Position numbers and translations under genes: made by a program. 50,991 nt of DNA. Source: Candidatus Fermentibacteraceae bacterium (GTDB lineage: Bacteria; Fermentibacterota; Fermentibacteria; Fermentibacterales; JCC-6). Positions 8,298 through 48,773 of the stretch are shown here, in pieces. Numbering within the stretch: position 1 is the first letter of the stretch; each line of letters begins with the position of its first letter. The DNA lies in contig JAFGPK010000053.1 of assembly GCA_016936235.1 (NCBI GenBank), positions 1-50,991 of the forward strand, read 5' to 3'. The notes under the pieces are model-generated. The model worked only from the letters and a program-made list of their open reading frames with translations, was not told the DNA's origin and did no database searches.

Positions 8298-8388
8298 ACC
8301 AATCACCCTTCCTGTCTCAGGCTCCCACATCGGACCCGCAGCGCGTATAATTGTTGTTCGCGCATAATCTATGGAATGGAGCCTGAAC

Positions 8389-11105: not shown

Positions 11106-11106
11106 C

Positions 11107-15774: not shown

Positions 15775-16798
15775 TGCCGTCATGCTTCTGGTGAAGACCC
15801 ATGCCTTCGGCGATGCCCTGATGTGCACGCCGGCGGTTCGGGAGCTGGTCCGGGACGGGAGGACCATCTGGGCTCTCACAGGACCTTCCGCCTCACCTGT
15901 ATGGGAGAGGGTCCAGGGTATCAGCAGGGTATTCGTGGCTCCGGTCCCCCCATCCGGGGCCGCCGACGGCATGAGGCTCCTGAAATGGACCCTGGGCATG
16001 CGCGGGGAGCTTCGCGGGACGGACAGCGCCCTTGTTTTCCAGGGCTCACCCTTCATCAGGAGGTGGGTGAGGTTTCTGACCTCTTCCAGAGTGGTTTCCT
16101 GCGGAGGGAACTCCCTTGGCTCCTGGGAGACGGTCTATCCCCTGGAGCCCGGGGAACTCGCAGGGCAGGCCTTCGCCAGGGTGGCGGGAGTGGAGGTCTC
16201 CGACTGGAGACCGGAGTTCCCGGTGAAGGAAGCCGAGATGAGATGGGCAGAGAAACTGGGCCTTCCTTTCCCCCTTTTCGCCATAGCCCCGGGTGGAGGC
16301 AGGAATCCCAGGGACACTGTGATGGAGAAGAGATGGATGCCGGAAAGGTACGCCGAGCTGGCCGGCAGGCTGTCATCCGCCGGGATCGGAACGGTACTGC
16401 TGGGAGGCGGAGACGACAGGGCCGCGGCTGCGGAGATGGCCCGATTCAGCAGCTGCGGTCTTCTGGACATGACGGGAAGGACCACCTGGGGGCAGACGGC
16501 GGCCATACTCGACCGGTGCTGCGGCTTCCTGGGAGCGGACAGCGGAACCGCGCATCTCGCGGCAGCAAGGGGGATCCCGTCGGTTGTTCTCTTCGGACCC
16601 TCATCGCCTTCGGCCCTCTACCCGGAAGGTCTGATAATTCCGGTGACGGCCTGCGTCGACTGTTCTCCGTGCTATTCCAACAGCCTCTTTCCCGGATGCA
16701 GGAATGACCGGGCCCTGTGCATGGAGTCCATTGAGCTGGAAGATGTATGGCCGGCCCTGGTCCGGGTGCTTGACAATCCGCCGGAAAGGGCCGAATGA
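15767..16798 (+). CDS. Glycosyltransferase family 9 (ADP-heptose:LPS heptosyltransferase-like)
   Basis: The 343-residue product has two Rossmann-like halves. Motifs are VKTHAFGDALMCTPAV at the N terminus, IAPGGGRNPRDTV midway, and GADSGTAHLAAARGIPSV and VVLFGPSSPSALYPEG in the nucleotide-sugar half, followed by the Cys-rich CVDCSPCYSN typical of GT9 enzymes. Members add heptose or related sugars to lipid A core. GTG 15767 follows GGAGGGA and overlaps the previous stop; ATG 15782 is an alternative. The next gene starts with an ATGA overlap. Donor sugar is inferred from the family. Confidence 0.88.
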   Translation: MADAVMLLVKTHAFGDALMCTPAVRELVRDGRTIWALTGPSASPVWERVQGISRVFVAPVPPSGAADGMRLLKWTLGMRGELRGTDSALVFQGSPFIRRWVRFLTSSRVVSCGGNSLGSWETVYPLEPGELAGQAFARVAGVEVSDWRPEFPVKEAEMRWAEKLGLPFPLFAIAPGGGRNPRDTVMEKRWMPERYAELAGRLSSAGIGTVLLGGGDDRAAAAEMARFSSCGLLDMTGRTTWGQTAAILDRCCGFLGADSGTAHLAAARGIPSVVLFGPSSPSALYPEGLIIPVTACVDCSPCYSNSLFPGCRNDRALCMESIELEDVWPALVRVLDNPPERAE

Positions 16799-18246
16799 AG
16801 ATAGCGGCCGTGAACCCGCCGTTCCTTCCGGATTACAGCAGGGGGCAGAGAAGCCCGGCCGTGACCAGGAGCGGCACCCTGTACTATCCCATCTGGCTGG
16901 CCTACGCAGCCGGGGCGCTGGAGCAGGCCGGTCACGAAGTCGACCTTGTCGACGCACCCGCGGAAGGGCTGGACGAAGGGCAGGCAAGGGACAGGGTTCT
17001 TGCCGGCGGTCCGGGCCTGGTCGTTGTGGAGACTTCCACGCCTTCAATAGAGTCCGATGCCTCCTTCGCCGACGGACTGGCCGGCGAGGGTATCACGGTG
17101 GTGCTCGTGGGAACCCATCCGTCCGCGCTTCCTGAAGAGACACTTGAGCTTGGAGAGCTTTTCCAGGGGGTGGTGACCGGCGAGTACGAACTTCCGCTGC
17201 TGGGTCTGGCCTACGCCCTGGAGAAGGGTCTCGACCCTGCCGAGGTGAAGGGCCTCTGCCTAAGGACACCGGGCGGAGGGTCCTTGCGCACCGGTGAAGG
17301 GGAGAAAGTGGAGGACCTGGACTCCATCCCCTGGGTCAGCAGGGTGTACGCCAGGCACCTTGACATTCCCAGGTACAACAATCCCAACGCCCTTCACCCC
17401 CAGGTGATGATCATGGGAGGCAGGGGCTGCCCGCACGGCTGCACGTTCTGCGTATTTCCCCAGACCCTCCAGGGCAGGAGGTTCAGGAGGAGATCAGTGC
17501 GGGACATAACCGGGGAGGTTCTCTGGGTTCAGGAGCATCTGCCCGGGGTCAGGGCCGTCTTCTTCGAGGACGATACCATTTCCGCCGACACGGGGAGACT
17601 GCGGGAGCTGGCCGCCTCCTTCGTCCGCAGTGGAGTGTCCGTATCCTGGACCTGCAACATGCGGGCCGATGTGGATCTCGAGACCCTCAAGCTCTGCGCG
17701 GGGTCGGGTCTGCGTTCGGTTTGCGTCGGCTTCGAGAGCGGAAGCGACAGGATGCTGGAAGCCATGCGCAAGGGTATAACGGCGGACATGTCCAGGAAGT
17801 TCATGGAGAACGCTAGAGCGGCGGGGATACTTGTCCACGGCTGCTTCATGGTGGGAACTGCGGGGGAGACCAGGGAGACAATGGAGGAAACCCTACGGTT
17901 CTCCCTGGAACTGGACCCCGACACCGCGCAGTTCTACCCGATGATGGTCTACCCGGGTACTGAGGCCTACAGGCAGGCCGAGGGCTCGGGAAACCTGACT
18001 GCATGCCGTTGGAGGGACTGGCTCACCGACGAGGGTCTTCACAACTGCGTCGTGAGGACGGAGAGCCTGACATCGGAGGAACTGGTTGATTTCTGCGACA
18101 TGGCCAGAAGGAAGTTCTACCTCCGTCCCGGCTACGTACTGAGAAAACTTTGGAGAAGTCTGCGCGACCCGGACGAGGCCCACAGGACCCTGCGCGCATT
18201 CGCGACCTTCCGGAGGTACCTTTTCAGGAACTCGAGGCGGAGATGA
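16795..18246 (+). CDS. B12-binding-type radical SAM enzyme
   Basis: The 483-residue protein has an N-terminal Rossmann-like domain (1-150) of the cobalamin-binding class: KIAAVNPPFLP, LVVVETSTPS and VLVGTHPSALPEE. A canonical DxHxxG cobalamin ligand is not seen. The radical SAM core follows with the iron-sulfur CxxxCxxC in GRGCPHGCTFCVFP near residue 214 and GFESGSDRMLEAMRKG downstream. Related enzymes methylate or rearrange unactivated carbons in lipids, hopanoids, sugars or antibiotics. It overlaps genes on both sides by 4 bases, deep inside the glycan operon, so a sugar or lipid-carrier modification is the best guess. Confidence 0.85.
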   Translation: MKIAAVNPPFLPDYSRGQRSPAVTRSGTLYYPIWLAYAAGALEQAGHEVDLVDAPAEGLDEGQARDRVLAGGPGLVVVETSTPSIESDASFADGLAGEGITVVLVGTHPSALPEETLELGELFQGVVTGEYELPLLGLAYALEKGLDPAEVKGLCLRTPGGGSLRTGEGEKVEDLDSIPWVSRVYARHLDIPRYNNPNALHPQVMIMGGRGCPHGCTFCVFPQTLQGRRFRRRSVRDITGEVLWVQEHLPGVRAVFFEDDTISADTGRLRELAASFVRSGVSVSWTCNMRADVDLETLKLCAGSGLRSVCVGFESGSDRMLEAMRKGITADMSRKFMENARAAGILVHGCFMVGTAGETRETMEETLRFSLELDPDTAQFYPMMVYPGTEAYRQAEGSGNLTACRWRDWLTDEGLHNCVVRTESLTSEELVDFCDMARRKFYLRPGYVLRKLWRSLRDPDEAHRTLRAFATFRRYLFRNSRRR

Positions 18247-19208
18247 ACGCCCCGTTCCCCATCAGCGTGATCGTTCCGGCCTGGAACGATTTTCAGGACC
18301 TGGAGAAATGCCTCATGGCCCTTTCCCGACAGACTGCCAGGGACAGGATGGAGGTAGTTGTCTCCCTTGACGGAGGCGACCCCCTCCCGGCCCGACTGGA
18401 ACCCCTGACGGACAAGGTCGTGTCGGGAGATCATGCGGGACCCGCGGCGGCCAGGAACAGGGGCTTTCGGAATTCGGCAGGCGATTATGTGCTTTTCACC
18501 GATTCCGACTGCGTTCCCGCGGCTGACTGGGCCGAGGAGATGACGGCCGTACTGGAGTCCGGGGCGGATGCCGTCAAGGGCGTCTACACCGGAGGCGGGA
18601 GGAAGCTCATACAGAGGCTGGCGCAGATAGAGTTCCTGGAGAGGTACAGCCTTCTGAAGAGGAACCCTGACGTGGACATGGTGGACACGTATTCCGCCGG
18701 TTACAGGAGGGAAGCTCTGGAAGCTTCCGGAGGGTTCGACGAGTCGTTCCCTTTCCCTGACCATGAGGACGTGGACCTCTCGTACAGGATGGCATCCATG
18801 GGCTTCATCATGAGGTTCGCCCCCCGGGCCGGCGTGTCCCACAGCCACAGGGATTCATGGATCGCCTATTTCAGGATGAAGTACGGAAGGGGGAGATGGC
18901 GGACAAAGGTATTAAGGAGATATCCGCGCAAGACCGGATCCGACTCCTATACACCCGCCTGCATGATGCTTCAGATAGCTCTCTGCGCGCTTCTTCCCGC
19001 GATGATACTGCTGCTGGCGGTCTCACCGGTCCCCTTTGCCTCATGGTCGGCCCTATTCCTCCTTTCCACCATTCCTCTTGCCGCGAAGACCCTGAGGCAT
19101 GATCCCGTCCTGCTCCCTCTCGTTCCTCTTTTTTCATTCTGGAGGGGCTGCGCACTGTCATCGGGACTTCTGAGAGGTATATTCGGCCCCGACAAGGAGG
19201 CGGAATGA
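18243..19208 (+). CDS. Glycosyltransferase family 2, membrane-associated
   Basis: The 321-residue product begins MNAPFPISVIVPAWND, a GT-A nucleotide-binding strand. The metal site is FTDSDCVPAADW (DxD near residue 87) and the catalytic-side motif is DHEDVDLSYRM. A hydrophobic C-terminal region (about 240-315) carries two or three transmembrane helices. ATG 18243 overlaps the radical SAM stop as ATGA; a longer reading starting at 18150 lies inside that gene and is rejected. It should extend the glycan at the cytosolic face of the inner membrane from a nucleotide sugar. Exact linkage is unknown. Confidence 0.87.
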   Translation: MNAPFPISVIVPAWNDFQDLEKCLMALSRQTARDRMEVVVSLDGGDPLPARLEPLTDKVVSGDHAGPAAARNRGFRNSAGDYVLFTDSDCVPAADWAEEMTAVLESGADAVKGVYTGGGRKLIQRLAQIEFLERYSLLKRNPDVDMVDTYSAGYRREALEASGGFDESFPFPDHEDVDLSYRMASMGFIMRFAPRAGVSHSHRDSWIAYFRMKYGRGRWRTKVLRRYPRKTGSDSYTPACMMLQIALCALLPAMILLLAVSPVPFASWSALFLLSTIPLAAKTLRHDPVLLPLVPLFSFWRGCALSSGLLRGIFGPDKEAE

Positions 19209-20596
19209 AGCTGGCCCCTGCCCGAAGAGCCGACCGGGTTCTGATGATCCTGTTCATGATGGTGGACTTCATCTCCATACCACTGGTCTTCATGATGATC
19301 TGGGTCCTGAGGACCGTCATCCTGGTTGACATGCTGCCTGAGTTCCATCACGGAGTGGGGCTCTACCTGACGGCGCTTCCCGTGGTGGCAGTGCTCTGGG
19401 TGTTCTCCTTCGCGAGGGCGGGGCTGTACGTGCCCAGGAGGTACCCGGGGGGAATGGGTGAGATACAGCGGCTCCTGCGGGCCTGCGCCACTCTTCTCAT
19501 CTCGCTGATGGCGGCAAGCTATCTTGCAAGGATGGAATACTCCAGGCTGATGCTGTTCATGTTCATCGGGGCGGCTTTTCCGGTCTCCGCGCTGGGCAGA
19601 TTCGCTGCAAGGAAGGTTGCGAAGAGGGTGGCCCCGGTGAGGGAAGTACCCAGGATACTGGTGGTGGGTACGGGCGAGGTGGCTTCCAGGGTGGTGAGAT
19701 CACTGAGCAGGCTGCCCGGCAGGGCGCCGGAGATAGCCGGAGTGGTGTCGCTGGAAGAGGGCACCGGTGGTTCATTCCATGGCATACCCGTTGTCTCCGG
19801 TCTTTCCGGACTGGAGGAGATGATAGGGAAGCTTGACATAGACGAGGTTTTCTTCGCATCACCCGAACTCGACCACTCGAGTATTCTGGAGACGATATCG
19901 TCCATGGAGTGCACCAAGATACACTACAGGCTGGTCACCGACCTTTTCGAGATCGCCCTGGGCATCACGGACCTGGACGACCTGGCGAAGCTGCCGATAG
20001 TCGAGATCGGGTACGGTCAGCCGGGTACCCTGCACCGCTTCACCAAGAGGTTCATGGACGCCGCCATGTCCCTGTTGCTCCTCATCGTCCTTCTGCCGGT
20101 GATGGCCCTGATCTTCATCATCCACCTTCTGAGCGGGAAAGGGTCCCCCATCTTCAGGCAGAAGAGGGTCGGGCTCAGGGGCAGGGAGTTCACCCTGTAC
20201 AAGTTCAGGACCATGAAGCCTGATTCCGACGAGTACGAGGTCGCTCCGATCTCGATGGACGACAGGAGGGTGACCAGGCTCGGCCACTTCCTGAGGAGGA
20301 CAAGTCTCGACGAGCTTCCACAGCTTTTCAACGTGCTTCGCGGGGATATGAGCATGGTGGGCCCGAGGCCGGAGATGCCCTTCATAGCGAAGGAGTACAC
20401 CAGCTGGCAGAGGCACAGGCTGGACGTCAAGCCCGGACTCACCGGAATGTGGCAGATAATGGGCAGGAAGGAACTTCCTCTTCATGACAATCTGGAATAT
20501 GATTACTACTATATCAGGAATCAGTCTCTGATGCTGGATGTCACCATACTGCTCAGGACAATAGCCGTCATCTTCAGGGGAAGGGGTGCCTACTGA
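19205..20596 (+). CDS. Undecaprenyl-phosphate sugar phosphotransferase (WbaP/WcaJ-like)
   Basis: The 463-residue protein has four N-terminal transmembrane helices (1-135), a Rossmann-like region (about 150-250; ILVVGTGEVASRVVRSL) and the monotopic phosphoglycosyl transferase domain at about 275-463. The hallmark KFRTMKPDSDE, the RRTSLDELPQLFNVL catalytic stretch with adjacent Asp-Glu, and GDMSMVGPRPE are all present. It transfers a sugar phosphate to undecaprenyl phosphate, starting glycan assembly. ATG overlaps the GT2 stop. Its own TGA overlaps a CTG that probably starts the next gene. Confidence 0.93.
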   Translation: MKLAPARRADRVLMILFMMVDFISIPLVFMMIWVLRTVILVDMLPEFHHGVGLYLTALPVVAVLWVFSFARAGLYVPRRYPGGMGEIQRLLRACATLLISLMAASYLARMEYSRLMLFMFIGAAFPVSALGRFAARKVAKRVAPVREVPRILVVGTGEVASRVVRSLSRLPGRAPEIAGVVSLEEGTGGSFHGIPVVSGLSGLEEMIGKLDIDEVFFASPELDHSSILETISSMECTKIHYRLVTDLFEIALGITDLDDLAKLPIVEIGYGQPGTLHRFTKRFMDAAMSLLLLIVLLPVMALIFIIHLLSGKGSPIFRQKRVGLRGREFTLYKFRTMKPDSDEYEVAPISMDDRRVTRLGHFLRRTSLDELPQLFNVLRGDMSMVGPRPEMPFIAKEYTSWQRHRLDVKPGLTGMWQIMGRKELPLHDNLEYDYYYIRNQSLMLDVTILLRTIAVIFRGRGAY

Positions 20597-35072: not shown

Positions 35073-37169
35073 ATGAGAAAAGTAGTAGAGAGAGAAATTG
35101 CAGGCAGAACACTTACGATTGAAACAGGAAGAATGGCCAAGCAGGCCGACGGCGCCGTCTATGTAACTTACGGAGGTTCCGCCGTGCTCGTGGCGGCCAC
35201 TTCCGCCGGCGTCAGGGACCTTCCCTTCTTCCCCCTTACCATAGAGTACCGCGAGAGGACCTACGCCGCCGGCAAGATACCCGGCGGGTTCTTCAAGAGG
35301 GAAGGGAAGCCCCAGGAGAAGGAAGTCCTCACCGCCAGACTGATAGACAGGCCGCTAAGGCCCCTATTCCCCTCCGAATACCTGGAGGAGACCCAGATCT
35401 ACATCCTGGTCCTGAGTTCGGACAACGAGAACGATCCCAGCCTGCTGGGAATGCTGGGAGCTTCGGCGTCGCTCATGATCTCGGACATCCCCTGGTCGGG
35501 TCCCGTATCCTCCGTGAAGATAGGAAGGATAGAAGGGCAGTTCGTGGTCAATCCCACCATGGAGCAGCAGGAGCAGAGCGAGCTTGATCTGGTCGTTGCC
35601 GTGAAGGGGACCGACGTGGTCATGCTGGAGGGATCCAGCGACCAGCTTTCCGAGGACGAGGTGATGCAGGCCATCAAGCTTGCCTCGATGGAGGCAGCAA
35701 AGATAAACGAGCTTCAGCTGGAGCTTCAGAAGCTGGCCGGCAGGGAGAAACGTAGCTTCGAGCCCATTCTGGAAAAACCGGCGACCCTTCAGGACGATGT
35801 GAACGACATCGCCATGCCGGAGTTCGAGAAGGTCTATGGAAACGGCGTGAAGAACGCCCTCTCCGAAGCCGGGGACAGGGCAAGGGAAACCGCCCTGGAA
35901 AAGCTGGCTGGCAGGTATCCCGGGTTCGAGGAGGCCGACAAGCTCGACAGGATCATCGGCATCGCGATCAGCGAGGCTGAGATGCAGTTCGCCAGGCGCA
36001 AGCTCCTGGTGGAGAAGAAAAGGCATGACGGTCGGGCACAGGAAGATGTGCGTCAGATAACGTGCGAGGTGGGTGTCCTTCCCAGACCCCATGGTTCGGC
36101 ACTGTTCACGAGGGGCGAGACCCAGGCACTGGTGGCGGTCACGCTGGGAGGCGCCAGGGACGAGCAGAGGATAGATGCTCTCATGGGTGAGTACACCAAG
36201 GATTTCATGCTGCACTACAACTTCCCGTCATTCAGCGTGGGTGAAGTGAAACCCGCAAGGGGACCCGGACGAAGAGAGATAGGCCACGGCCATCTGGCGG
36301 AAATGGCCCTGTCCCATGTGATGCCCAAGAACAAGGAGGATTTCGCGTACACCGTTCGGATCGTGTCGGATGTACTCGAATCAAACGGCTCCTCCAGCCA
36401 GGCAACAATCTGCGGAGGTTCCCTGAGCCTCATGGATGCCGGAGTACCGGTGACCGACGCTGTTGCGGGGGTCGCCCTCGGCCTTGTGACCGACGGCAAG
36501 GACTACCGGATCCTGTCCGACATAGCCGGAGTCGAGGATCACCTCGGCGACATGGACCTGAAGATAGCCGGGACCTCCAGGGGCATAACTGCGATCCAGA
36601 TGGACCTCAAGGTCGAGGGGATCTCCCTGGATATTCTCAGGGAAGCCATGGAGAGGGCGCGCGAGAACAGGCTCCACATACTGGGCGAAATGAACAAGGT
36701 GATAAGCGAGCCCAGACCCGAACTCAGCCAGTACGCCCCCAGGGTCTATACGGTTCACATAGACAAGGATATGATAGGCAAGCTGATAGGTCCCGGCGGC
36801 AAGAACATCAGAGCCATCACCGAGGAGACCGGAGCCGACATCAACATAGAGGACGACGGTACCGTGGTGGTTCTGTCAGACGACGCCGCAGCGGCGGACA
36901 GGGCCATCGAGATGATAGAGCTGTCCGCGGGAAAACCGAAGGTAGGGCAGATCTACGAAGGAGTGGTGGCCAAGATAATGAACTTCGGCGCCTTCGTGGA
37001 GATAATGCCGGGAACCGACGGCCTGGTGCATATCAGCCAGATAAGCAAGACGAGGGTGGACAAGGTCGAGGACGTCCTCAAGCGGGGACAGCGCGTCCGG
37101 GTCAAGGTCATAGACGTCAAGGACGACGGCAAGGTTGATCTCACAATGAAGGACGTCGACCAGAAATAG
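35073..37169 (+). CDS. pnp: Polyribonucleotide nucleotidyltransferase (PNPase)
   Basis: The 698-residue 3'-5' phosphorolytic exoribonuclease has two RNase PH domains (about 10-145 and 315-540), separated by a helical domain. The active-site stretch RPLRPLFPSEYLEETQI and FMLHYNFPSFSVGEVKPARG are visible. A KH domain (IGKLIGPGGKNIRAITEETG, near residue 570) and an S1 domain (VGQIYEGVVAKIMNFGAFVE, near 625) follow. All domains are complete. It is preceded by a hairpin-containing leader and an A/G-rich ribosome-binding stretch, and follows rpsO. Confidence 0.97.
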   Translation: MRKVVEREIAGRTLTIETGRMAKQADGAVYVTYGGSAVLVAATSAGVRDLPFFPLTIEYRERTYAAGKIPGGFFKREGKPQEKEVLTARLIDRPLRPLFPSEYLEETQIYILVLSSDNENDPSLLGMLGASASLMISDIPWSGPVSSVKIGRIEGQFVVNPTMEQQEQSELDLVVAVKGTDVVMLEGSSDQLSEDEVMQAIKLASMEAAKINELQLELQKLAGREKRSFEPILEKPATLQDDVNDIAMPEFEKVYGNGVKNALSEAGDRARETALEKLAGRYPGFEEADKLDRIIGIAISEAEMQFARRKLLVEKKRHDGRAQEDVRQITCEVGVLPRPHGSALFTRGETQALVAVTLGGARDEQRIDALMGEYTKDFMLHYNFPSFSVGEVKPARGPGRREIGHGHLAEMALSHVMPKNKEDFAYTVRIVSDVLESNGSSSQATICGGSLSLMDAGVPVTDAVAGVALGLVTDGKDYRILSDIAGVEDHLGDMDLKIAGTSRGITAIQMDLKVEGISLDILREAMERARENRLHILGEMNKVISEPRPELSQYAPRVYTVHIDKDMIGKLIGPGGKNIRAITEETGADINIEDDGTVVVLSDDAAAADRAIEMIELSAGKPKVGQIYEGVVAKIMNFGAFVEIMPGTDGLVHISQISKTRVDKVEDVLKRGQRVRVKVIDVKDDGKVDLTMKDVDQK

Positions 37170-37219
37170 GGTCAGCAGAGGGATAACAGGGAGATCGTTC
37201 CCGGAAGGACACGGGGAGA

Positions 37220-37666
37220 ATGGAAGTGGAAGTACTCCTGGAAGTGCTGGAGCACGCACAGGGACTTCCCCTTCCCTTCATGGCGACACCGGGTTCAAGC
37301 GGGGCTGACCTGCATGCCGCCGTGGGTTCCGATATCGTGCTGGATCCTGGAGAAACCGTCCTCGTCCCCACGGGACTGAGGATCTCCGTTCCCCCCGGAT
37401 ACGAGTGGCAGATACGTCCCAGGAGCGGAAACGCCCTGAAACATGGCGTAACCGTCCTGAATTCTCCCGGCACAGTGGATTCTGATTACCGCGGCGAGGT
37501 AAAGGTCATCCTCGCCAACCTTGGCCGCAATCCCTTCGTGATAAGAAGAGGCGACAGGATAGCACAGGCGGTGCTTGCTCCCGTGGTCAGGCCGAAGTTC
37601 GTGAAGGTGGACGGTCTTCCCCGGACAGGCAGGGGTGAGGGGGGGTTCGGTCATTCAGGCATATGA
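37220..37666 (+). CDS. dut: dUTP diphosphatase
   Basis: The 148-residue trimeric dUTPase hydrolyses dUTP to dUMP. Motif 1 is [12 protein letters not shown], motif 2 [11 protein letters not shown], motif 3 [14 protein letters not shown], motif 4 [13 protein letters not shown] and motif 5 [11 protein letters not shown]. The catalytic Asp in motif 3 and the Arg and Phe of motif 5 are present. Motif 2 has Asn where most have Leu, and motif 5 has His-Ser for Ser-Thr. The ATG follows GGGGAGA. It overlaps the next gene by 32 bases. Confidence 0.93.
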
Positions 37667-38153
37667 AGTCCCGAGATCCATCCTGCGGGCAGCCCTGGCG
37701 GCCCTGATGTTTTTTCTCTCCTGCTCCTACGGCTTCAGGGGAAGTCTTCCCGAGCATCTCCAGTCGGTTCGTGTCGAGCCTTTCCGGAGCAGGGTGACCC
37801 AGTACGGCCTTGAGCAGGAGCTGACGTCCAGAGTGACGGAGAAGATAGTAATGGACGGACGACTGGCTGTGGCCGTTGAGGGTCAGGATTCCCAGATCGA
37901 GGGAATTGTCGCGGTATACGCAAAGACTCCCTATTCATATACCTCGGCGGAGGTGGTGGAGGAATACAAGCTTGAGATAAGGGTGGAGATATCCTTTACC
38001 GATCTTCTTCAGGAGAACGATATTATCAATGGCGAGAGTATAACTACCTGGCTGGTGTACGATCCAGATGCGGAGTCCGAGGCTCAGGCCCTGGAGAGGC
38101 TCCTGGAGGAATCGGCGGAGGATATAGTCAGGAGATGTCTTTCAGGATGGTAG
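37635..38153 (+). CDS. lptE: LptE-like outer-membrane lipoprotein
   Basis: Up to 172 residues. A hydrophobic stretch ends with lipobox FLSCS near residue 30, followed by [37 protein letters not shown] and [17 protein letters not shown]. This is the pattern of LptE/RlpB-like plugs of the LptD translocon, with the YGF segment after the Cys and the Y-x-L-E-x-x-L helix. The GTG at 37635 lies inside dut and has a poor ribosome site; an ATT at 37653 behind a G-rich run is an alternative, so the start is uncertain. Family call is moderate. Confidence 0.65.
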
Positions 38154-38159
38154 GTGAAT

Positions 38160-38540
38160 ATGTCTGAAGTGTTTTCCGGCAGGAACGGTCTCTACGCGCT
38201 GCTTCTTGTAATACTGCTGATGGTCGTGAGCGTAGCGGTGAAGTATGTGAGGATGAACTCCCTGACTCCCGGCAGGGTAAGCAGCGAACTGGAAGATGTC
38301 TACGAAAGGGTGGACGATGTGAGGCCCCTTTCGCTCCTGAAAGCCCAGTTCCTCATCGAGTGGGGCAACTACCGCAATTCCGGAGAGTGTTCTCGGGCGG
38401 TGGCCTCCTCCAGGAACTATTCCGGCAACGGTTTCGAAGGTGATATGTACGTGGTTACCTACGTCGATTCGATTGAATTTCCGGGATTCCTGCCCACGAT
38501 AAGCAGGCAGTTCAGAGTGACCAGGCGGATAGGGAACTGA
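38160..38540 (+). CDS. Single-pass membrane protein of unknown function
   Basis: The 126-residue product has an N-terminal transmembrane helix (about residues 10-27, LYALLLVILLMVVSVAV) and a small alpha/beta domain with YVVTYVDSIEFPGF. No family is recognised. ATG 38160 follows TAGGTGAAT with AGG six bases ahead; GTG 38154 directly after the lptE stop is an alternative. Its TGA overlaps the next ATG as TGATG, so it is coupled to the small membrane protein that follows and probably to the LptE-like gene before it. Confidence 0.6.
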   Translation: MSEVFSGRNGLYALLLVILLMVVSVAVKYVRMNSLTPGRVSSELEDVYERVDDVRPLSLLKAQFLIEWGNYRNSGECSRAVASSRNYSGNGFEGDMYVVTYVDSIEFPGFLPTISRQFRVTRRIGN

Positions 38541-38719
38541 TGCCCCTTATCGATGACTGGCGGGATAAACATCCCAGAAGTCAATCAAGGGGACGAGTCG
38601 TGCTGTACATCTTCCTGCTGATAATGGTGCTTGTTTTCATTTTGAAGGCCGATTCACTGGTGCGGGGATTCACGGGTATCTTCTTTTCCCCGGACACCGC
38701 GTCAGCGACGGAGGAGTGA
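38540..38719 (+). CDS. Small single-pass membrane protein, 59 residues
   Basis: ATG 38540 overlaps the previous TGA and the frame runs to TGA 38717-38719. The product reads MPLIDDWRDKHPRSQSRGR, then a transmembrane helix VLYIFLLIMVLVFILKA, then a short tail. Coupling by TGATG and placement without gaps between neighbours support a real gene. No homologue is recognised. It could anchor or regulate neighbouring envelope proteins. Confidence 0.55.
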   Translation: MPLIDDWRDKHPRSQSRGRVVLYIFLLIMVLVFILKADSLVRGFTGIFFSPDTASATEE

Positions 38720-39559
38720 ATGCAGCAGGTATTCGATGCACATGTCGACACTCTGATGCGAATCGGTGACCCGGAGCAGTTCTTGAAAGGGACCCGCCGG
38801 ACCCATCTGGACATGCCCAGGGCCATCGAGGCAGGTGTGAGCCATCTTGTGACCGCCGTTTGCTCGGAAGCGGAAAAGGACCCGCTGAAGGCCTTTCACA
38901 ATGGGTATTCAAACTATCTCCAGCTCCGTCATCGCTCCTCCATAACGCTCCATCTCATGCTGGAGGGATGTCAGCAGCTCTGCGAACTGCCTGAAAGGGA
39001 GGAGATCATTCGCGACGCCGCGGTCGCGTCTCTGACCTGGAACGGCAGGAACAGCCTCGGAGGGGGGATCGGGACCGATACCGGACTGACCGACCCGGGA
39101 AGGTCCCTGGCCCTGGAGCTTCATGACGAAGGTGTTCTGCTGGATGTTTCGCATCTGTGCGACAGGTCCAGGGGGGAACTGCTGTCCCTTGGGATCTGTA
39201 CGGTGGCCACTCACTGCAACTGCAGGGCGCTTCACGACTTTCCCAGGAACCTGCCCGACGACGACCTGAGGAGGATCGCGGCATCCGGCGGGGTGGTGGG
39301 CATAACGTTCGTGCCGGCATTCCTCGGGGGAGGGGAGGCGCTCGAGGATATAGTGCGTCACCTGGAACACCTTGTTGATGCGGCGGGTATCGACGCCGCC
39401 GGTTTCGGCAGCGATTTCGACGGAGTAGGTCGCCTGCCAGGTGGTGTGCCGGACTGCACGGTCTGGCCATCCCTGTTCGAACTGCTGGACAGGAGGGGCT
39501 GGTCCGCGGAGGACATCGATCTTGTGGCCTTCGGCAACTGGAGAAGAGTAATCAAATAA
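38720..39559 (+). CDS. M19 family membrane dipeptidase
   Basis: The 279-residue protein has the renal dipeptidase features: N-terminal FDAHVDTLMR (HxD metal ligands), LMLEGCQQL (bridging Glu), a C-terminal-half segment LDVSHLCDRSRGELL, ATHCNCRALHDFPRNLPDDDL (family usually SHSxxRAL), VVGITFVPAF and GFGSDFDGVGRLPGG. The essential metal ligands are intact, so it should cleave dipeptides, possibly cell-wall D-amino-acid peptides. At 279 residues it is shorter than typical members (about 320-370), lacking some insertions. No signal peptide is seen. Confidence 0.88.
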   Translation: MQQVFDAHVDTLMRIGDPEQFLKGTRRTHLDMPRAIEAGVSHLVTAVCSEAEKDPLKAFHNGYSNYLQLRHRSSITLHLMLEGCQQLCELPEREEIIRDAAVASLTWNGRNSLGGGIGTDTGLTDPGRSLALELHDEGVLLDVSHLCDRSRGELLSLGICTVATHCNCRALHDFPRNLPDDDLRRIAASGGVVGITFVPAFLGGGEALEDIVRHLEHLVDAAGIDAAGFGSDFDGVGRLPGGVPDCTVWPSLFELLDRRGWSAEDIDLVAFGNWRRVIK

Positions 39560-39581
39560 AGCGGAAATGGGGAAAACATCT

Positions 39582-40358
39582 ATGCGTTTCATTGTCGCAG
39601 CGCTTCTGATCTCGTTCCTTTCCTTCGGGCAGACTCCCTTTGAGTTTGCAGTGGTGGAGGAACTCATCGGCGGATCACCCTTCGTCAGCGTAATCAGGAT
39701 AAAGATCAACTCCGGAGTCCCGGAAGCCGGAAGGAAACAGCTAGCCCTTACCACCAGGGCGGGGATGATACTGGAGGGGGAACAGGCGGTTTTTCCGGAT
39801 TCATCCACCGCGGGAAACGTGGTCTTCTCCGGACTGGTTCAGTACAGGGCGTCCATACCGGTCCATACGATCGACAGGGTGTTCTCGGTCCTGTCGGAGT
39901 GCATGGATCGTTTTCCAGGCATGGGGCTGACGGACCTTGCGCTTGATGTGGTGGACGTTAACGACCTTAGCTGGATCAGCGTGGAATGCCCCATATCCGT
40001 GATCGACAGCGTTCTGGCGGGAACGATGACCCACGAGCAGTTCTGGAGGAGGGCCAGTCTCAAGGAGTTCGAGATCGGGACTGTTCTCTTCCCGACCGAA
40101 ATGCGCCAGCCCCTGGTCCCTGACTGGAGCACGAGGGTGGACACGCTTCCCGCAGTAAGTGCGGCAGCTCAATCGGCCCAGCCCTGGAAATCCCTGCTGT
40201 TGCCCGGGTGGGGACAGCTTTCCGCCGGCAGGGGAATCGGATGGCTCAATATTGCCGTTGAAGCAGGGGGCATAGTCCTTCTTGCCACCGGTGAGGATGA
40301 GACCGGGTTCGCGGTGCTGGGCGTGAACCATCTGGTAAGTTTCATAGACCTGTTCTGA
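39582..40358 (+). CDS. Secreted protein with C-terminal DUF5683-like domain
   Basis: ATG 39582 gives the signal peptide MRFIVAALLISFLSFGQ; GGGGA lies eight bases upstream. ATG 39567 is an alternative. The 258-residue product has an N-terminal beta-rich part of unknown type and a C-terminal stretch QPWKSLLLPGWGQLSAGR with GIGWLNIAVEAGGIVLLA, the pattern of DUF5683-like membrane domains of FCB bacteria. No function is known. It lies 22 bases after the dipeptidase. Confidence 0.6.
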   Translation: MRFIVAALLISFLSFGQTPFEFAVVEELIGGSPFVSVIRIKINSGVPEAGRKQLALTTRAGMILEGEQAVFPDSSTAGNVVFSGLVQYRASIPVHTIDRVFSVLSECMDRFPGMGLTDLALDVVDVNDLSWISVECPISVIDSVLAGTMTHEQFWRRASLKEFEIGTVLFPTEMRQPLVPDWSTRVDTLPAVSAAAQSAQPWKSLLLPGWGQLSAGRGIGWLNIAVEAGGIVLLATGEDETGFAVLGVNHLVSFIDLF

Positions 40359-40374: not shown

Positions 40375-40689
40375 TTGAGGAACCTTAGGAACATTCTCAG
40401 GATATGCCTGACCGTCAGCATCCTGATCTGGACCGCTGGATTCATAATGGGTAGCGGCATGTCGCTTCTATGGTCCATTGCCGGAATGGCATCCTATGTC
40501 GCTCCGGTGTCCGCTGTGCTTCTCGTCGTAATGGTCCTGACGGGAACCGGAGAGAGCGTCCAGGCCGCCAGACGCAAGGCCGGTGAGACACTTAAGTGCG
40601 TGGAGTGCGGAAGGCCTTCAGTTCCCGGGTCCAAGTACTGCAGATATCACCTGGACATAATGAAGGACGAGGAGAAGAGGTCGGTTTGA
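40375..40689 (+). CDS. Two-helix membrane protein with C-terminal zinc ribbon
   Basis: The 104-residue protein starts at TTG 40375 behind GAGGAAGAG. Two transmembrane helices (about 7-30 and 38-57) are followed by a zinc-ribbon-like motif CVECGRPSVPGSKYCRYH near residue 75-92, with four metal-binding Cys/His positions. Its stop TGA overlaps the TTG start of apbE, so it is coupled to that gene. Role unknown; the ribbon might sense redox or metal. Confidence 0.6.
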   Translation: MRNLRNILRICLTVSILIWTAGFIMGSGMSLLWSIAGMASYVAPVSAVLLVVMVLTGTGESVQAARRKAGETLKCVECGRPSVPGSKYCRYHLDIMKDEEKRSV

Positions 40690-41696
40690 CGTCCTCAAGC
40701 AGGGGCATCCGTCCGCGGACGGTGGTCCTGCTCCTCATGCTGAGCCTTCTGGCGGCCGTCGCGGTCAGGCCCATGATCAGGCCGGGTTCTCCCGTGCTCG
40801 TCGAGGTCAGGAGGAGGACCCCGGTACTGGGGACCTACGCTACTTACATTGTCGTCGCCGATAGCGGTTCAGCAGGGCGCATACTGGCCTCGATGGATTC
40901 ACTGGCAAGGATACTGGACGATGAGCTCGGCATATACGGCACCGGAGAGCTTTCCCGCATCAATTCCGCGGGTCGGGCCCATATATCGGACCTCTCCGCC
41001 GACATGGAGTATCTGCTTGAGACCTCCCTTCTCCTCTCAGAGGTCACTGATTCACTGTTCGATCCGGCAATCGGGGCCCTGGTTTCCGTCTGGGGTTTTC
41101 CCCGGCAGCCCGTGCTGCCTGACAGCGCGGAGATCGACAGCGCCCTTGCCGTATCGGGGCTTGCCCACCTCAGGATAGAAGGGGATACCCTCTTCCTTGA
41201 CGAGGGGACACTGCTTGATCTCGGCGCCGTGGCGAAAGGGTACGTGTCGGACAGGATATACTCCCATGCCCGCAGGTCGGGGGCGGCAGCGGCCCTCGTG
41301 GAGATAGGCGGAGAGATCAGGTGCGGAGGGGACCCTTCGGCAGGCAGGACCTGGAGGCTTGCCGTGAGAGATCCCAGGGGCGAGGGCACCCTGGAGATAA
41401 TGGAAATGGACAGCGGAGCCATGGCCACGTCCGGAGACTACGAAAGCTTCTTCATAAAGGACGGGCGGCGCTACTGCCATATTCTGGACCCGAGGACAGG
41501 CTATCCCGAAACAGGCACCGCCTCGGTCACCGTGGTCTCGCACAGCGCTTCCATCGCCGACGCACTCGCCACGGCCATTTCAGTCGGAGGCGTGACCCTT
41601 GCAGGTACCGTGCCTGATTCGCTTTTCACCCTCATGATCGTTATAACAGAAGACGAAACCGGCGCTATTGAGCAGTGGAGAAGAGAAGCCCGATGA
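40686..41696 (+). CDS. apbE: FAD:protein FMN transferase ApbE
   Basis: The 336-residue enzyme covalently attaches FMN to Ser/Thr in flavoproteins such as Rnf and Nqr subunits. TTG 40686 overlaps the previous stop and has GAGG upstream. An N-terminal transmembrane helix (about 10-30) is present. Motifs include LGTYATYIV (usual MGT), GELSRIN, FDPAIGALVSVWGF, DLGAVAKGYVSD and ATSGDYESFF, then YCHILDPRTGYP. These cover the FAD and metal sites. It is coupled to an AmrS-type radical SAM gene and a NusG-domain-II protein. Confidence 0.93.
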   Translation: MTSSSRGIRPRTVVLLLMLSLLAAVAVRPMIRPGSPVLVEVRRRTPVLGTYATYIVVADSGSAGRILASMDSLARILDDELGIYGTGELSRINSAGRAHISDLSADMEYLLETSLLLSEVTDSLFDPAIGALVSVWGFPRQPVLPDSAEIDSALAVSGLAHLRIEGDTLFLDEGTLLDLGAVAKGYVSDRIYSHARRSGAAAALVEIGGEIRCGGDPSAGRTWRLAVRDPRGEGTLEIMEMDSGAMATSGDYESFFIKDGRRYCHILDPRTGYPETGTASVTVVSHSASIADALATAISVGGVTLAGTVPDSLFTLMIVITEDETGAIEQWRREAR

Positions 41697-42691
41697 GAGA
41701 AGCGGAATGGTTCGTGAAGTCCGACGGTGGATGGAAGTGCATGCTCTGTCCCAGGGGCTGCACGTTCAGGGAGGGTGCCGGCGGCCGCGGCCTGTGCAGG
41801 GTCAGGGGGGTCAAGGACGGCATCCCTTACCTGCCCGGGTACGCCGAATGCGTTTCACTCTCGATAGACCCCATCGAGAAGAAACCCCTCTACCATTTCC
41901 TCCCCGGAACAGTGATACTCTCCACCGGCCCCCCGGGCTGCAACCTGACCTGTGATTTCTGCCAGAACTGGACCATATCCCAGAGCGACGATGTTCCCAC
42001 CCGGCACGTCCCGCCGCAGGACCTTGCGGAGATGGCCATGTCGCGGGGCAGCAGAGGGATAGCCTTCACATACACTGAACCCGCCATCTGGTTCGAGTAC
42101 ATAGCCGATGTGGCCCCCCTGGTGAGGGACCTGGGCGGGGCTGTGGTGATGGTGTCCAACGGCGAGGTTACACATGAGCCCCTGGAGAGCTATATCCGGT
42201 TCACCGACGCCTGGAACGTCGATCTGAAATCCTGGTCGCCGGAATTCTACGGAAAGCACTGCAGCGGCAGTCTGGACGCCGTCCTCGACACTCTGAAGAC
42301 ACTGGCCGCATCCCGGTGCCATCTGGAGGTCACGTTCCTGATAATACCGGGAGAGAACGACGACCCGGAGGAGTGGAGGGAGATGGCGGCATGGCTTTCC
42401 GGGAACTGCGGCAGGGATACTGTGCTGCACATCTCAAGGTACTTCCCCAGGTACAGGCTCAGGCGGGAGCCCACACCGGTGGAGACCCTCGTATCAGCCA
42501 TGAAGATATTCTCGGAAAACCTTGACCATGTATACCTCGGCAATGTCTCAGCCGGGTACTCCGATACAGTATGCCCGTCCTGCGGAGCCGTATGCGTGGA
42601 CAGGAACGGTTGGGCCGTGGACACATCCGGTCTCAGGGGAGGCGCGTGTGCATCATGCGGACAGGAACTCGACATAGTACATGAGCTCTGA
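41693..42691 (+). CDS. amrS: AmmeMemoRadiSam-type radical SAM enzyme (AmrS/PFL-activase family)
   Basis: The 332-residue protein has N-terminal Cys clusters (CMLCPRGCTFREGA, GLCRVR), the iron-sulfur CxxxCxxC in PGCNLTCDFCQNWTISQ near residue 88 and AFTYTEPAIWFEY, the hallmark of the AmrS group. A C-terminal zinc ribbon follows (CPSCGAVC, CASCGQEL). It is a radical SAM enzyme of the glycyl-radical-activase group with an unknown substrate. ATG 41693 overlaps the apbE TGA as ATGA. It overlaps the next gene by 11 bases. Confidence 0.88.
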   Translation: MREAEWFVKSDGGWKCMLCPRGCTFREGAGGRGLCRVRGVKDGIPYLPGYAECVSLSIDPIEKKPLYHFLPGTVILSTGPPGCNLTCDFCQNWTISQSDDVPTRHVPPQDLAEMAMSRGSRGIAFTYTEPAIWFEYIADVAPLVRDLGGAVVMVSNGEVTHEPLESYIRFTDAWNVDLKSWSPEFYGKHCSGSLDAVLDTLKTLAASRCHLEVTFLIIPGENDDPEEWREMAAWLSGNCGRDTVLHISRYFPRYRLRREPTPVETLVSAMKIFSENLDHVYLGNVSAGYSDTVCPSCGAVCVDRNGWAVDTSGLRGGACASCGQELDIVHEL

Positions 42692-43067
42692 CAGGGAATA
42701 CCCGCTGTTCAGACCCGCGGACCTGGCCATACCCCTGTTCCTCGTCCTGGTATTCCTGGTCCTCGGCATCGGCAGCTCGTCAGCTCCCCGGGGAGACCTC
42801 TTCCTTGAGATTCACGCGGGGGAGACAACCATGACCGTGCCAATGGTTTCCGATTCGGTCCTCCTCGTTGAGGGCAACCTTGGTCAGATGGAGATCCGGC
42901 TGCAGGGCGGAAGAGCGAGGATCGCATCCTCCCCCTGCCCTGGGCAGGACTGCGTCAGACAGGGATGGCTGACCCGCCCAGGGGACATGTCCGTGTGCGT
43001 TCCATCAGGGGTCTTCATCGTCATAAGCTGTGACGGCAGGAGTGCTCCCGATGCGGTATCCTACTGA
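42681..43067 (+). CDS. NusG-domain-II membrane protein
   Basis: The 128-residue protein has one transmembrane helix (about 14-32, LAIPLFLVLVFLVLGIG) and an outer domain that starts LFLEIHAGETTMTVPM. Then comes SSPCPGQDCVRQGWLTRPG, where two conserved Cys flank the turn, followed by VCVPSGVFIVISC. This is the NusG domain II family found with ApbE and FMN-linked electron-transfer proteins. The ATG overlaps the radical SAM gene. The partner may be a flavinylated extracytoplasmic protein; that link is inference. Confidence 0.78.
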   Translation: MSSDREYPLFRPADLAIPLFLVLVFLVLGIGSSSAPRGDLFLEIHAGETTMTVPMVSDSVLLVEGNLGQMEIRLQGGRARIASSPCPGQDCVRQGWLTRPGDMSVCVPSGVFIVISCDGRSAPDAVSY

Positions 43068-46287: not shown

Positions 46288-46394
46288 TATGGACAATGCC
46301 CGTTATTGCCAATGCAGAGACTCAACAACATTGAACATATAGCTTCTCACGGTGACCGGCTCAGGCCGTGATGGAAACAGGATTGGACAGAACA

Positions 46395-48773
46395 ATGAAA
46401 AAATTGACCTTTATATTGCTTGTCATGACGGCCGCCCTGGTTTCCGCGGACGATCTCCTCATCACATGGGAGGCGCCGACCGATGATCCGGAAGTAATGC
46501 AGGGCCCCCTGGGGGAGTATTTCTCCATTCCCGGAGCAGTGAACACCGGAGTCCCGGGTGAGCCGACCCTGCCCGTCTTCCCCGTTATGGTCCTGTTGCC
46601 TCCGGGAGCCGTGGTCGACGGGGTCGAACCTCTTTCGCAGCTGAGCCGCGAGCTTCCCGGCACCGTGGACCTGAAGCCTGCGCAGCACGGAGTGCCCATA
46701 TCCATGCCCCAGCTGTTCACGCCAACCCCAAGGGATCCGGAGGCGTATTCCCGCGAAGCCCGGCGACCCCTGGTGGAGGCCGTATCACAGGGACATCTCA
46801 TGGGTTGCAACCTCCTGGACCTGAGGGTTTCGCCCGTCTCCTGGGATCCCGCCACGGGAAAGGCTACTCTGACCACGCTGTTCGCAATGAGGATCGAGTA
46901 CCATGTCGAATCCATGAACGCTGTTCCCTGGGGCAGGGGAGAGGAGGGGGCCAGGCTGCTCTACAGCATCATCCGCAGCCAGGTCATCAATCCCGAGGAC
47001 TACCGCGAACCCGTGACCGTCGCCTCCAGAGACCTTCCCTGGGGCGAGTACCTGATAATCACAAGGGACTCTCTGGTTGAGGTCTTCGAACCCCTTGCCC
47101 AGTTCAAGACCATGAAGGGCATTCCGGCGAAGATCGTCACGATGGAGTACATAGAGTCGAACTACGGAGGCGTCGACGCAGCCCAGAAGCTGAGATTCTT
47201 CCTGAGGGACATATACGAGACGACTCCTCCCACCTGGATCCTCCTCGGAGGCGATACTCCCCTGGTGCCTCACCGTAACTGCTGGGCCACCGCAGAAGGC
47301 TATGTAGACGATCCTGCAGCGGACATCTACTTCCAGGACATGAACGACCCGCAGGTGGGCACTGATTACTGGGACTTCAACAACAACGGGGTCTGGGGCG
47401 AGACCAGCGGCGACATCATGGACTACCATCCTGATTATTTCATCGGAAGGGCGGCTGTGGAGAACGGTCCTGAGGCCAATATCTTCGTCAACAAGGTCCT
47501 GGCCTACGAGCTTCCCCAGCTGGCAGACGGCAGGGATACCGATCCGTGGTACACTTCAATGGGCTTCACCACCGGGATACTCTGGAGCAGTCCGTACTGC
47601 CCGGGAAGCGCCGGCAAGGAGAAGGTGGACACCCTTTACACACCGCCGCAGTGGCAGCCGGTCATCAAGCATTACGAGAGCGCCGGCACCCAGAGCTACT
47701 CACTGACCATGGCGATGCTCAACGCAGGAATGAACCTGGTCAACCATGCCTGTCACGGCAGCAACAACAGCGTATCCATAGGATCCGGTTCTCTGGGGTC
47801 AGGTGACTTCATGAGTCTAACGAACATCTCCGAACACGGCAGGGTGTCCATCTGGAACACTCTGGCCTGCCTCTCGGGCTCCTTCGATACCGGTGGCTGC
47901 CTTGCGGAGGCGTGGATCACCTCTCCCGGAGGGGGAGGTTTCTGCATGATGAACACAAGGTACGGCTGGGGAGAACCCTCCCAGCCGGGAGGCCAGTGGA
48001 GCGATCTTGTGGACCAGGAGTTCTTCGCCAATTTCTTCACCGAGGATCTCTTCAACCTGGGAGTCGCACACAGCATGGCATGGGACGAGTTCATACCCCT
48101 GATCCCGTCGGACCCACATTACGACTGGATAGCTAAATCAATAACCCTCTTCGGGGATCCGGAACTTCCCATGTGGCTCAATGCGCCCGACGGACCCCTG
48201 CAGGTGAACGGTCCTGACTCACTATACGTGGGTGTGAACAATATCATCGTATCGGTGACGGACAACTCTGGTCCCGTGGATGATGCCAGAGTCTGTCTGA
48301 TGCAGGGGGAATGGGACGATCCCTGCATGTACGAGGTCGATTATACAAGCGGCTCTGGACAGGTCAGCATGACGGTCACGGCAACCGACGATCACGATAC
48401 CGCAGCTCTGACCGTATGGGGCAGGGACCATGCAGCGGTGACCATTGACATACCCGTGACCCTGAACGGAATATCGGGCCCGGAGACCCCGGTGCTGAAT
48501 CCATCCGTATCGAGACCCTGGCCCAATCCGGCCGTGGGCTCAGTGGCATTCCAGTGGGCTTCACCCAAGGGTAAAGCATCGATAATGATAATCGACGCGG
48601 CAGGCAGGATGATAAGAAGGATGGAACTCGAGCCCGGAAGGAGCGGGACACTGGTATGGGAGTGCGATGATGAAAATGGATCCCCTGTGCCTTCCGGACT
48701 GTATTTCGCACTATTCCAGGCGGAAGGTTCGGCTCCGGTCACCCGGAGCCTGGTAGTGGTGAACAATGACTAG
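46395..48773 (+). CDS. Gingipain-like C25 cysteine peptidase with C-terminal sorting-type domain
   Basis: The 792-residue protein starts MKKLTFILLVMTAALVSA, a signal peptide, followed by a propeptide-like beta region to about residue 220. The C25 catalytic domain spans about 220-600. Its catalytic pair is His454 in VNHACHGSNN and Cys492 in TLACLSGSFDTGG, with TWILLGGDTPLVPH and SITLFGDPELPMW flanking. An Ig-like domain follows, and the C-terminal 85 residues (SRPWPNPAVGSVAF, DAAGRMIRRMELEPG, VPSGLYFALFQAEG) form a FlgD-like/type-A sorting tail. It is a secreted protease, probably anchored or exported by a T9SS-like route. Confidence 0.88.
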   Translation: MKKLTFILLVMTAALVSADDLLITWEAPTDDPEVMQGPLGEYFSIPGAVNTGVPGEPTLPVFPVMVLLPPGAVVDGVEPLSQLSRELPGTVDLKPAQHGVPISMPQLFTPTPRDPEAYSREARRPLVEAVSQGHLMGCNLLDLRVSPVSWDPATGKATLTTLFAMRIEYHVESMNAVPWGRGEEGARLLYSIIRSQVINPEDYREPVTVASRDLPWGEYLIITRDSLVEVFEPLAQFKTMKGIPAKIVTMEYIESNYGGVDAAQKLRFFLRDIYETTPPTWILLGGDTPLVPHRNCWATAEGYVDDPAADIYFQDMNDPQVGTDYWDFNNNGVWGETSGDIMDYHPDYFIGRAAVENGPEANIFVNKVLAYELPQLADGRDTDPWYTSMGFTTGILWSSPYCPGSAGKEKVDTLYTPPQWQPVIKHYESAGTQSYSLTMAMLNAGMNLVNHACHGSNNSVSIGSGSLGSGDFMSLTNISEHGRVSIWNTLACLSGSFDTGGCLAEAWITSPGGGGFCMMNTRYGWGEPSQPGGQWSDLVDQEFFANFFTEDLFNLGVAHSMAWDEFIPLIPSDPHYDWIAKSITLFGDPELPMWLNAPDGPLQVNGPDSLYVGVNNIIVSVTDNSGPVDDARVCLMQGEWDDPCMYEVDYTSGSGQVSMTVTATDDHDTAALTVWGRDHAAVTIDIPVTLNGISGPETPVLNPSVSRPWPNPAVGSVAFQWASPKGKASIMIIDAAGRMIRRMELEPGRSGTLVWECDDENGSPVPSGLYFALFQAEGSAPVTRSLVVVNND

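Follow-up and report, generated by a model that had tools for sequence, protein, structure and literature searches.

The stretch of DNA analysed here (50,991 nucleotides from a Candidatus Fermentibacteraceae bacterium; hereafter the window) corresponds to contig C38 in a genome of 2.68 Mb with 94% completeness. It carries four overlapping genes, which encode a small zinc-ribbon protein (ZnR), the flavin mononucleotide (FMN) transferase ApbE, a radical S-adenosylmethionine (SAM) enzyme (AmrS2), and a NusG domain II protein (NusG_II). A sequence-only reading had placed these genes at 40375–43067, and the open reading frames (ORFs) and the sequence bore this out, with all four genes on the + strand and the coordinates correct. 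The overlaps ZnR/ApbE, ApbE/AmrS2, and AmrS2/NusG_II comprise 4, 4, and 11 bases, respectively, a pattern as in translationally coupled genes. For AmrS2, the ATG at 41693 was chosen as the start; the mechanical ORF list has a GTG at 41675.

ApbE matched PF02424 (E 1.9e-65, 221.5 bits vs the cut-off of 25.6), is the sole ApbE match in its own genome, and was matched by solved ApbE structures with E-values down to 3.3e-41. Its N-terminus read as hydrophobic by eye; topology and export signals were judged throughout from hydropathy or by eye, not by a predictor. AmrS2 scored above the cut-offs of both the Pfam family Radical_SAM (67 vs 29.5 bits) and the NCBIfam model TIGR04337 (296.8 vs 220 bits). 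Its CxxxCxxC motif (C83, C87, C90) and its N-terminal CxxCPxxC motif were invariant in 12 of 12 aligned rows. No signal peptide or other export signal was visible in AmrS2, and its substrate must therefore be accessible on the cytosolic side. Among solved structures, those matching AmrS2 best by sequence were pyruvate formate-lyase activases, a lead that may give a hint on its chemistry only.

AmrS (TIGR04337), MEMO, and AMMECR1 are the three genes of the AmmeMemoRadiSam system, and the last two have human homologues. AmrS2 resembles this system in exceeding the TIGR04337 cut-off, but differs from it in the position of the partners: Pfam detected neither MEMO nor AMMECR1 among the 10 proteins scanned at 37.6–46.3 kb. 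The search of the genome for these partners that the sequence-only reading had suggested located both. On contig C27, a canonical AmrS1 has as its neighbour a MEMO-AMMECR1 fusion whose N-terminus is lipoprotein-like. Contig C63 encodes a second, signal-less MEMO, preceded by a gene that was read as dapB-like.

NusG_II matched PF07009 (60 bits vs the cut-off of 29.6). Its AlphaFold model (mean predicted local distance difference test score 80.8) consists of one N-terminal helix (residues 12–30) and a beta domain. Foldseek matches of this model included NusG, 3ld7, 4esn, 2kpp, and 4obi; a new fold was ruled out, because all 14 matches with E <0.001 were NusG or NusG_II/DUF1312. Three cysteines and one proline (C86-x4-C91, C106, and P108) were invariant in 20 divergent NusG_II proteins.

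ZnR matched no Pfam family above cut-off and no NCBIfam model. Its C-terminal zinc-ribbon motif C-x2-C-x10-C-x2-H (C75, C78, C89, H92) was invariant across the window protein and the 26 homologues found; all of these proteins show two hydrophobic stretches, and every homologue was from Fermentibacterota. Judging from charge, the zinc ribbon probably lies on the cytosolic side. With its two membrane helices and cysteine cluster, ZnR is similar to RseC, which accompanies Rsx/Rnf and ApbE in Escherichia coli (available part of PMC11729352). In contrast to RseC, its motif is C-terminal, and Pfam found no PF04246 match in it.

Table 1. Features of the window and of further loci (L numbers) mentioned in the text
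Feature	Sequence	Coordinates	Strand	Remarks
ZnR, 104 amino acids (aa)	window	40375..40689	+	start TTG 40375
ApbE, FAD:protein FMN transferase	window	40686..41696	+	start TTG 40686; PF02424
AmrS2, radical-SAM enzyme	window	41693..42691	+	start ATG 41693; TIGR04337
NusG_II (EetA-like, putative)	window	42681..43067	+	start ATG 42681; PF07009
u263, no family	window	39567..40358	+	ends 16 bases upstream of ZnR
pnp, dut, LptE-like, 128-aa ORF, peptidase M19	window	35073..39559	+	upstream syntenic genes
801-aa protein	window	46368-48773		secreted-looking
Polysaccharide export and glycosyltransferase cluster	window	10311-20596
B12-binding radical-SAM protein	window	16795-18246
SelA- and SelB-like genes	L072 (own C3)	6293-9654		named by reading
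AmrS1	L071	9051-10040	-	Fermentibacterota
~80-aa ORF upstream of AmrS1	L071	10030-10269	-
MEMO-AMMECR1 fusion	L071	7361-8875	-	confirmed by Pfam
MEMO-AMMECR1 fusion	L079	9629-11119
Spermidine-synthase-like membrane protein	L071	5338-7368	-
Membrane protein with spermidine-synthase-like domain	L033	6149-8812		directly upstream of NusG_II
DsbD_2-FMN_bind-Fer4_5 protein	L094	6003-7748		directly upstream of AmrS
DsbD_2-FMN_bind-Fer4_5 protein	L120	1744-3435		directly upstream of AmrS
DsbD_2-FMN_bind-Fer4_5 protein	L142	5585-7252		directly upstream of AmrS

Linkage of AmrS, ApbE, and NusG_II across genomes

Of the 30 genomes of the order that were searched, the own genome included, 26 gave a NusG_II match, and ApbE, AmrS, and NusG_II are consecutive in 25 of these 26 (the window and 24 of the 25 others). 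The exception is a 61% complete genome (G013, locus L047), in which NusG_II has no ApbE and AmrS2 alongside. ZnR was detected in 23 of the 25 other NusG_II genomes, and loci with the same gene run are labelled Candidatus Fermentibacteraceae and Sabulitectum. The four genomes of the order that gave no NusG_II match were G004, G016, G019, and G024. In G024, EetB (PF07456) and AmrS were matched, with ApbE, RnfD, FMN_bind, and NusG_II unmatched.

For linkage beyond the phylum, a scan with the AmrS2 alignment gave at least 591 loci, of which the 80 most similar to AmrS2 were examined. The genomes are drafts, in which an unlinked gene can reflect a contig break, and the MEMO and AMMECR1 profiles matched the same ORFs, so that a neighbour labelled in this way is MEMO and/or AMMECR1. 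NusG_II lay within 3 kb of AmrS in 11 of the 80 loci, always on the same strand. Four of these loci are from Fermentibacterota and seven from six other named phyla: Deferribacterota (L105), Spirochaetota (L127), Eiseniibacteriota (L128), WOR-3/Caldifarciminota (L133), Cloacimonadota (L139 and L151), and Thermotogota (L143). ApbE was close by in four of the seven (L105, L128, L133, L143) and EetB in five (the same four and L127). As an internal control, regions close to AmrS (up to 3 kb away; 494 kb in total) were compared with regions farther out (478 kb), which gave 11 vs 0 for NusG_II, 9 vs 0 for ApbE, and 5 vs 0 for EetB.

The gene order varied. L133 has the order of the window without ZnR (ApbE-AmrS-NusG_II-EetB, followed by a DUF4321 protein), L105 has AmrS-ApbE-NusG_II-EetB, L143 has AMMECR1-AmrS-ApbE-NusG_II-EetB, and L127 has NusG_II-EetB-AmrS. 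A further linked case was AmrS-NusG_II-EetB in genome G032 (L044), and in L088 (Thermotogaceae) AMMECR1-AmrS-ApbE stands at a contig end and NusG_II-EetB on a separate contig. Several candidates were set aside. FMN_bind matches beside AmrS in Omnitrophota (L100, L109, L138) were attributed to profile drift, since Pfam found only DsbD_2 in L100 and L138; these loci were not counted as flavin proteins, and the FMN_bind flank count (6 within 3 kb, 1 beyond), which this drift inflates, was not used. An AmrS-profile match near NusG_II in L203 was judged by eye to be another radical-SAM protein and was not counted; the single TIGR04337 match of genome G042 lies on a contig other than that of L203.

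The AmrS tree (98 rows, quick method, 40 of 95 forks open) showed that the NusG_II-linked rows require 8 changes, at least 4 of them by well-supported branches, compared with a mean of 18.5 for shuffled labels. A single clade of NusG_II-linked AmrS was rejected (p-AU 0.000275, approximately unbiased test). This tree fits either repeated assembly of the AmrS/NusG_II pair or an old pair that was broken many times. An accident of slow rearrangement within one phylum, which the likewise conserved flanking order pnp-dut-LptE might suggest, is hardly credible as the origin of the conserved run and is already contradicted by linkage in six other named phyla, with different surroundings and order, and by AmrS proteins that are not monophyletic.

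Co-occurrence was then assessed in 50 AmrS-bearing genomes, taken as bacterial, non-Fermentibacterota loci in rank order, with L143 (known to be linked) in place of the next-in-line L142. The search for NusG_II elsewhere in the genome covered loci ranked down to L143, and the search for MEMO covered 27 genomes. NusG_II was present in 16 of the 50 genomes. ApbE was found in 16/16 genomes with NusG_II vs 22/34 without it (Fisher p 0.005), and the RnfD family in 16/16 vs 21/34 (Fisher p 0.004), with relatedness ignored in both tests; the RnfD family includes NqrB, and Rnf is therefore not proven for each genome. AmrS and NusG_II were linked in 6 of the 16 genomes (5 of 15 without L143), or in 6 of the 9 non-Bacillota genomes with both. 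In Clostridium tetanomorphum (G056), NusG_II, EetB, and ApbE adjoin Rnf instead. Four of the six linked genomes (G058, G078, G088, G089) have no AmrS other than the linked one, and MEMO was found in each of the six, which indicates that the link concerns the main AmrS and not just a spare copy. In the control genome of Thermotoga maritima, ApbE, NusG_II, AmrS, FMN_bind, the RnfD family, EetB, and MEMO were matched, as presence only and with gene order not seen; its NusG_II match may come from NusG itself.

The sequence-only reading had staked its proposal on co-occurrence of these families across genomes. An ApbE-AmrS-NusG_II link was found in the order and partly in other phyla, so that the proposal was not refuted on this count, and the gene partnership is real and recurrent.

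Flavin targets and candidate roles of the gene set

Proteins that ApbE could flavinylate were identified elsewhere in the own genome. Contig C3 carries the genes of one Rnf-type complex with one RnfD gene (D and G assigned by Pfam; C, E, A, and B by reading). The target motif of ApbE is Dxx[ST]G[AC]T, and such FMN-attachment motifs occur in RnfD (DAYSGAT), RnfG (DAITGCT), and a 131-aa FMN_bind protein on contig C34 (DAVSGAT). The sequence-only reading had suggested a check for a nearby flavinylated protein: targets exist in the genome, and none lies near the set. EetB gave a single match, on contig C42, which is not adjacent to the ApbE set of the window. Its small neighbour looks DUF4321-like by eye, and Pfam does not confirm this. 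Immediately after the Rnf operon come SelA- and SelB-like genes, a possible sign of selenocysteine use.

According to the available part of PMC9973259, EetB is the flavin adenine dinucleotide (FAD)-binding subunit of an exporter, FmnB (an ApbE) flavinylates outside the cytosol, and EetB is co-located with EetA (3,328 genomes), ApbE (2,169 genomes), and Rnf (572 Clostridia genomes). The window set fits this EetA/EetB/ApbE maturation pathway. Like the EetA-EetB-FmnA/FmnB systems of Listeria and of Rnf-bearing Clostridia, as far as that source describes them, the window has ApbE close to NusG_II (here one gene apart), related clusters have a PF07456 gene adjacent (single copy in this genome), and Rnf is the likely target. 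The window differs from these systems in that AmrS separates ApbE from NusG_II, EetB sits on a different contig, a zinc-ribbon protein specific to the lineage is encoded, and the host belongs to a candidate phylum of the FCB (Fibrobacterota–Chlorobiota–Bacteroidota) group. The idea that the four genes define a system by themselves was not supported, as the EetB/EetA/ApbE partnership has already been described (PMC9973259, in the part available) and the exporter gene lies on C42.

We propose that the four genes probably, though by no means certainly, form a translationally coupled maturation operon for extracytoplasmic flavin electron transfer, above all for Rnf, with AmrS2 as a functional member. 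Judging from the known families, EetB would export FAD, ApbE would transfer FMN from the exported FAD onto RnfD, RnfG, and the small FMN_bind protein, and the EetA-like NusG_II would assist on the outer face of the membrane via its three cysteines. More tentatively, the cytosolic AmrS2, perhaps together with the signal-less MEMO of C63, may carry out a radical modification in this pathway; its target would be a client or a cofactor, with an Rnf subunit or the not yet exported EetA-like protein as the likeliest candidates. ZnR might play the part of RseC for Rsx/Rnf, which is an analogy only.

Several observations weigh against this maturation operon. To our knowledge, no AmrS biochemistry has been reported. 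The Rnf operon lies apart from the four-gene set, 41 of the 80 AmrS loci have none of the tested neighbours (many of them truncated by contig ends), and AmrS and NusG_II are both present but unlinked in 7/7 Bacillota. In the control panel, Lactococcus lactis was matched for NusG_II, EetB, and ApbE, with AmrS unmatched at E 1e-30; in Methanocaldococcus jannaschii and Sulfolobus acidocaldarius, AmrS and MEMO were matched and ApbE was not, so AmrS has work apart from flavinylation. Within the order, G019 has RnfD and FMN_bind, with ApbE, AmrS, NusG_II, and EetB unmatched, an observation that either weighs against a strict link or results from the fragmentation of this genome into 550 contigs. NusG_II is assigned to the EetA family, putatively, from its place beside EetB (a PF07456-type gene adjoins it in 13 of the 18 NusG_II loci of the 50-genome set). 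Moreover, deletion of eetA in Listeria gave no electron-transfer phenotype (available part of PMC9973259); eetA/B is required in L. plantarum (available part of PMC9888254).

The two archaea also accord with another explanation, in which the genes lie together because anaerobic redox housekeeping genes are regulated in common, and AmrS, MEMO, and AMMECR1 act in a separate pathway. A MEMO and/or AMMECR1 neighbour without NusG_II was found in 25 of the 80 loci, the loci without any tested neighbour point the same way, and the Fermentibacterota run also includes pnp, dut, and LptE genes. However, same-strand linkage recurs in several phyla in varied order, with no NusG_II, ApbE, or EetB match in the outer flanks, and a DsbD_2-FMN_bind-Fer4_5 flavin-binding membrane protein lies directly upstream of AmrS in L094, L120, and L142. 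We regard shared regulation as unlikely.

It is less probable still that AmrS2 modifies NusG_II itself before export (for example at a CPxxxC...C motif), making NusG_II a direct radical-SAM substrate. NusG_II and AmrS are immediate neighbours both in the window and at L128, L133, L139, L151, and L044; in the two Cloacimonadota loci (L139, L151) the pair is adjacent with no ApbE or EetB detected nearby, and the invariant cysteines and proline would suit such a substrate. Yet these cysteines are equally invariant in NusG_II proteins from genomes with an unlinked AmrS (L172, L174, L176), L. lactis was matched for NusG_II without AmrS, and ApbE (L105, L143) or EetB (L127) stands between the two genes.

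NusG_II is also comparable to NqrM of the nqr ApbE-NqrM pair (available part of PMC12174285), as each is a small membrane-bound maturation factor for a pump of the Rnf/Nqr type, with its gene next to ApbE. Structures of the NusG_II type were the only matches of the NusG_II fold, with NqrM itself outside the comparison, and an iron-insertion role for NusG_II, after NqrM, would be only an analogy.

The flavinylation part of the proposed operon is known; the addition of AmrS appears to be new. In the open-access literature searched (most subscription papers and bioRxiv were outside its reach), no paper joined the ApbE/EetA/EetB link to AmrS, and nothing was found on AMMECR1 together with ApbE. 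Judged by titles and the beginnings of abstracts, no paper there gave AmrS or AmmeMemoRadiSam a function, nothing relevant surfaced on MEMO1/AMMECR1/radical SAM, a paper matched by AmrS and radical SAM proved unrelated, and the papers checked gave NusG_II no function in their available parts. The main texts of PMC8238504 and PMC11334425 contain neither 'radical SAM' nor 'AMMECR1', the Rnf review PMC12174285 mentions no NusG, EetB, or radical SAM, and 'NusG domain' was absent among the matches listed for the Rnf/ApbE literature, as far as these were available. If true, the tie of AmrS to flavin attachment and Rnf would provide a concrete pathway for testing AmrS, possibly in culturable Thermotogota, and would add a maturation step to Rnf, a central ion pump of anaerobes.

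AmrS proteins with export-like N-termini

The AmrS1 of the own genome falls beside the AmrS of an Aegiribacteria genome in the tree. In the 29-row clade that contains it, 13 rows have an N-terminal segment that looks Tat-like or like a hydrophobic export segment. Five are Tat (twin-arginine translocation)-like (L146, L083, L158, L078, and L157, the last with KR instead of RR) and eight resemble membrane anchors (L138, L100, L109, L098, L142, L075, L094, L120). In L071, L079, and L140 the export-like segment is a separate overlapping ORF (the genome of L079 was viewed as L223), and the remaining 13 of the 29 rows have none. Outside this clade, no convincing export N-terminus was found among the 65 rows viewed; in L149 and L156, codons for hydrophobic residues precede the usual start. 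Three more cases lie outside the tree: L200 (WOR-3, Tat-like), L199 (Eiseniibacteriota, anchor), and L226 (Zixiibacteriota, Tat-like). Signal-like starts were seen in 9/14 MEMO/AMMECR1 ORFs beside AmrS of this clade vs 0/19 beside other AmrS; Fisher tests on this comparison ignore relatedness.

These N-termini suggest a class of radical-SAM enzymes at or outside the membrane, whose export is predicted from sequence. If real, this class would contradict the view that radical-SAM enzymes are confined to the cytosol. In the one paper checked on radical SAM and twin-arginine export, the radical-SAM protein is, in the part available, a neighbour gene only. It is possible, although doubtful, that AmmeMemoRadiSam is a two-compartment maturation/repair system for envelope flavin/thiol carriers, with the cytosolic form tied to FAD export and flavinylation; if true, this would place radical-SAM chemistry outside the cytoplasm.

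The Fermentibacterota AmrS1 begins right at its first cysteine motif. Just upstream, an overlapping ORF of ~80 aa (L071, L140, L207–L223) begins like a signal peptide, and its end resembles the missing N-terminus of AmrS1. This ORF lies in frame -1 relative to AmrS1 at 18 of 19 loci, the exception being L209 with frame -2 (L140 and L208 have the same letters, and the ORF of L221 has a stop near its end). The frame in L209 disfavours a conserved programmed frameshift and would make a split, coupled gene the likelier arrangement.

Further genes accompany AmrS loci. MEMO-AMMECR1 fusions with lipoprotein-like signal peptides occur in L071, L079, L195, L197, and L199 (Pfam was applied to L071 only). 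Spermidine-synthase-like membrane proteins lie near AmrS1-type loci in L071, L079, L078, L083, L157, L199, and L226; the copy of the own genome scores below the Pfam cut-off, and G034 has a protein with such a domain next to NusG_II (L033). The loci with the DsbD_2-FMN_bind-Fer4_5 protein span UBP3, Auribacterota, and Chlamydiota. RseC-like genes were seen nearby in L094, L120, and L128; in L128, where Pfam was applied, an RseC_MucC protein is encoded downstream of EetB.

Surroundings of the gene set in the window

The u263 gene precedes ZnR, and the same run is kept across the order. The syntenic genes farther upstream (Pfam identified LptE and M19; pnp and dut were read from sequence) are context and stand outside the proposed function. 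Downstream of the set, the 801-aa protein was read from sequence, without a family search, as a gingipain-type (C25) peptidase, and its homologues lie near the gene set in many genomes of the order. The window also carries a polysaccharide export and glycosyltransferase cluster, within which a B12-binding radical-SAM protein is encoded.

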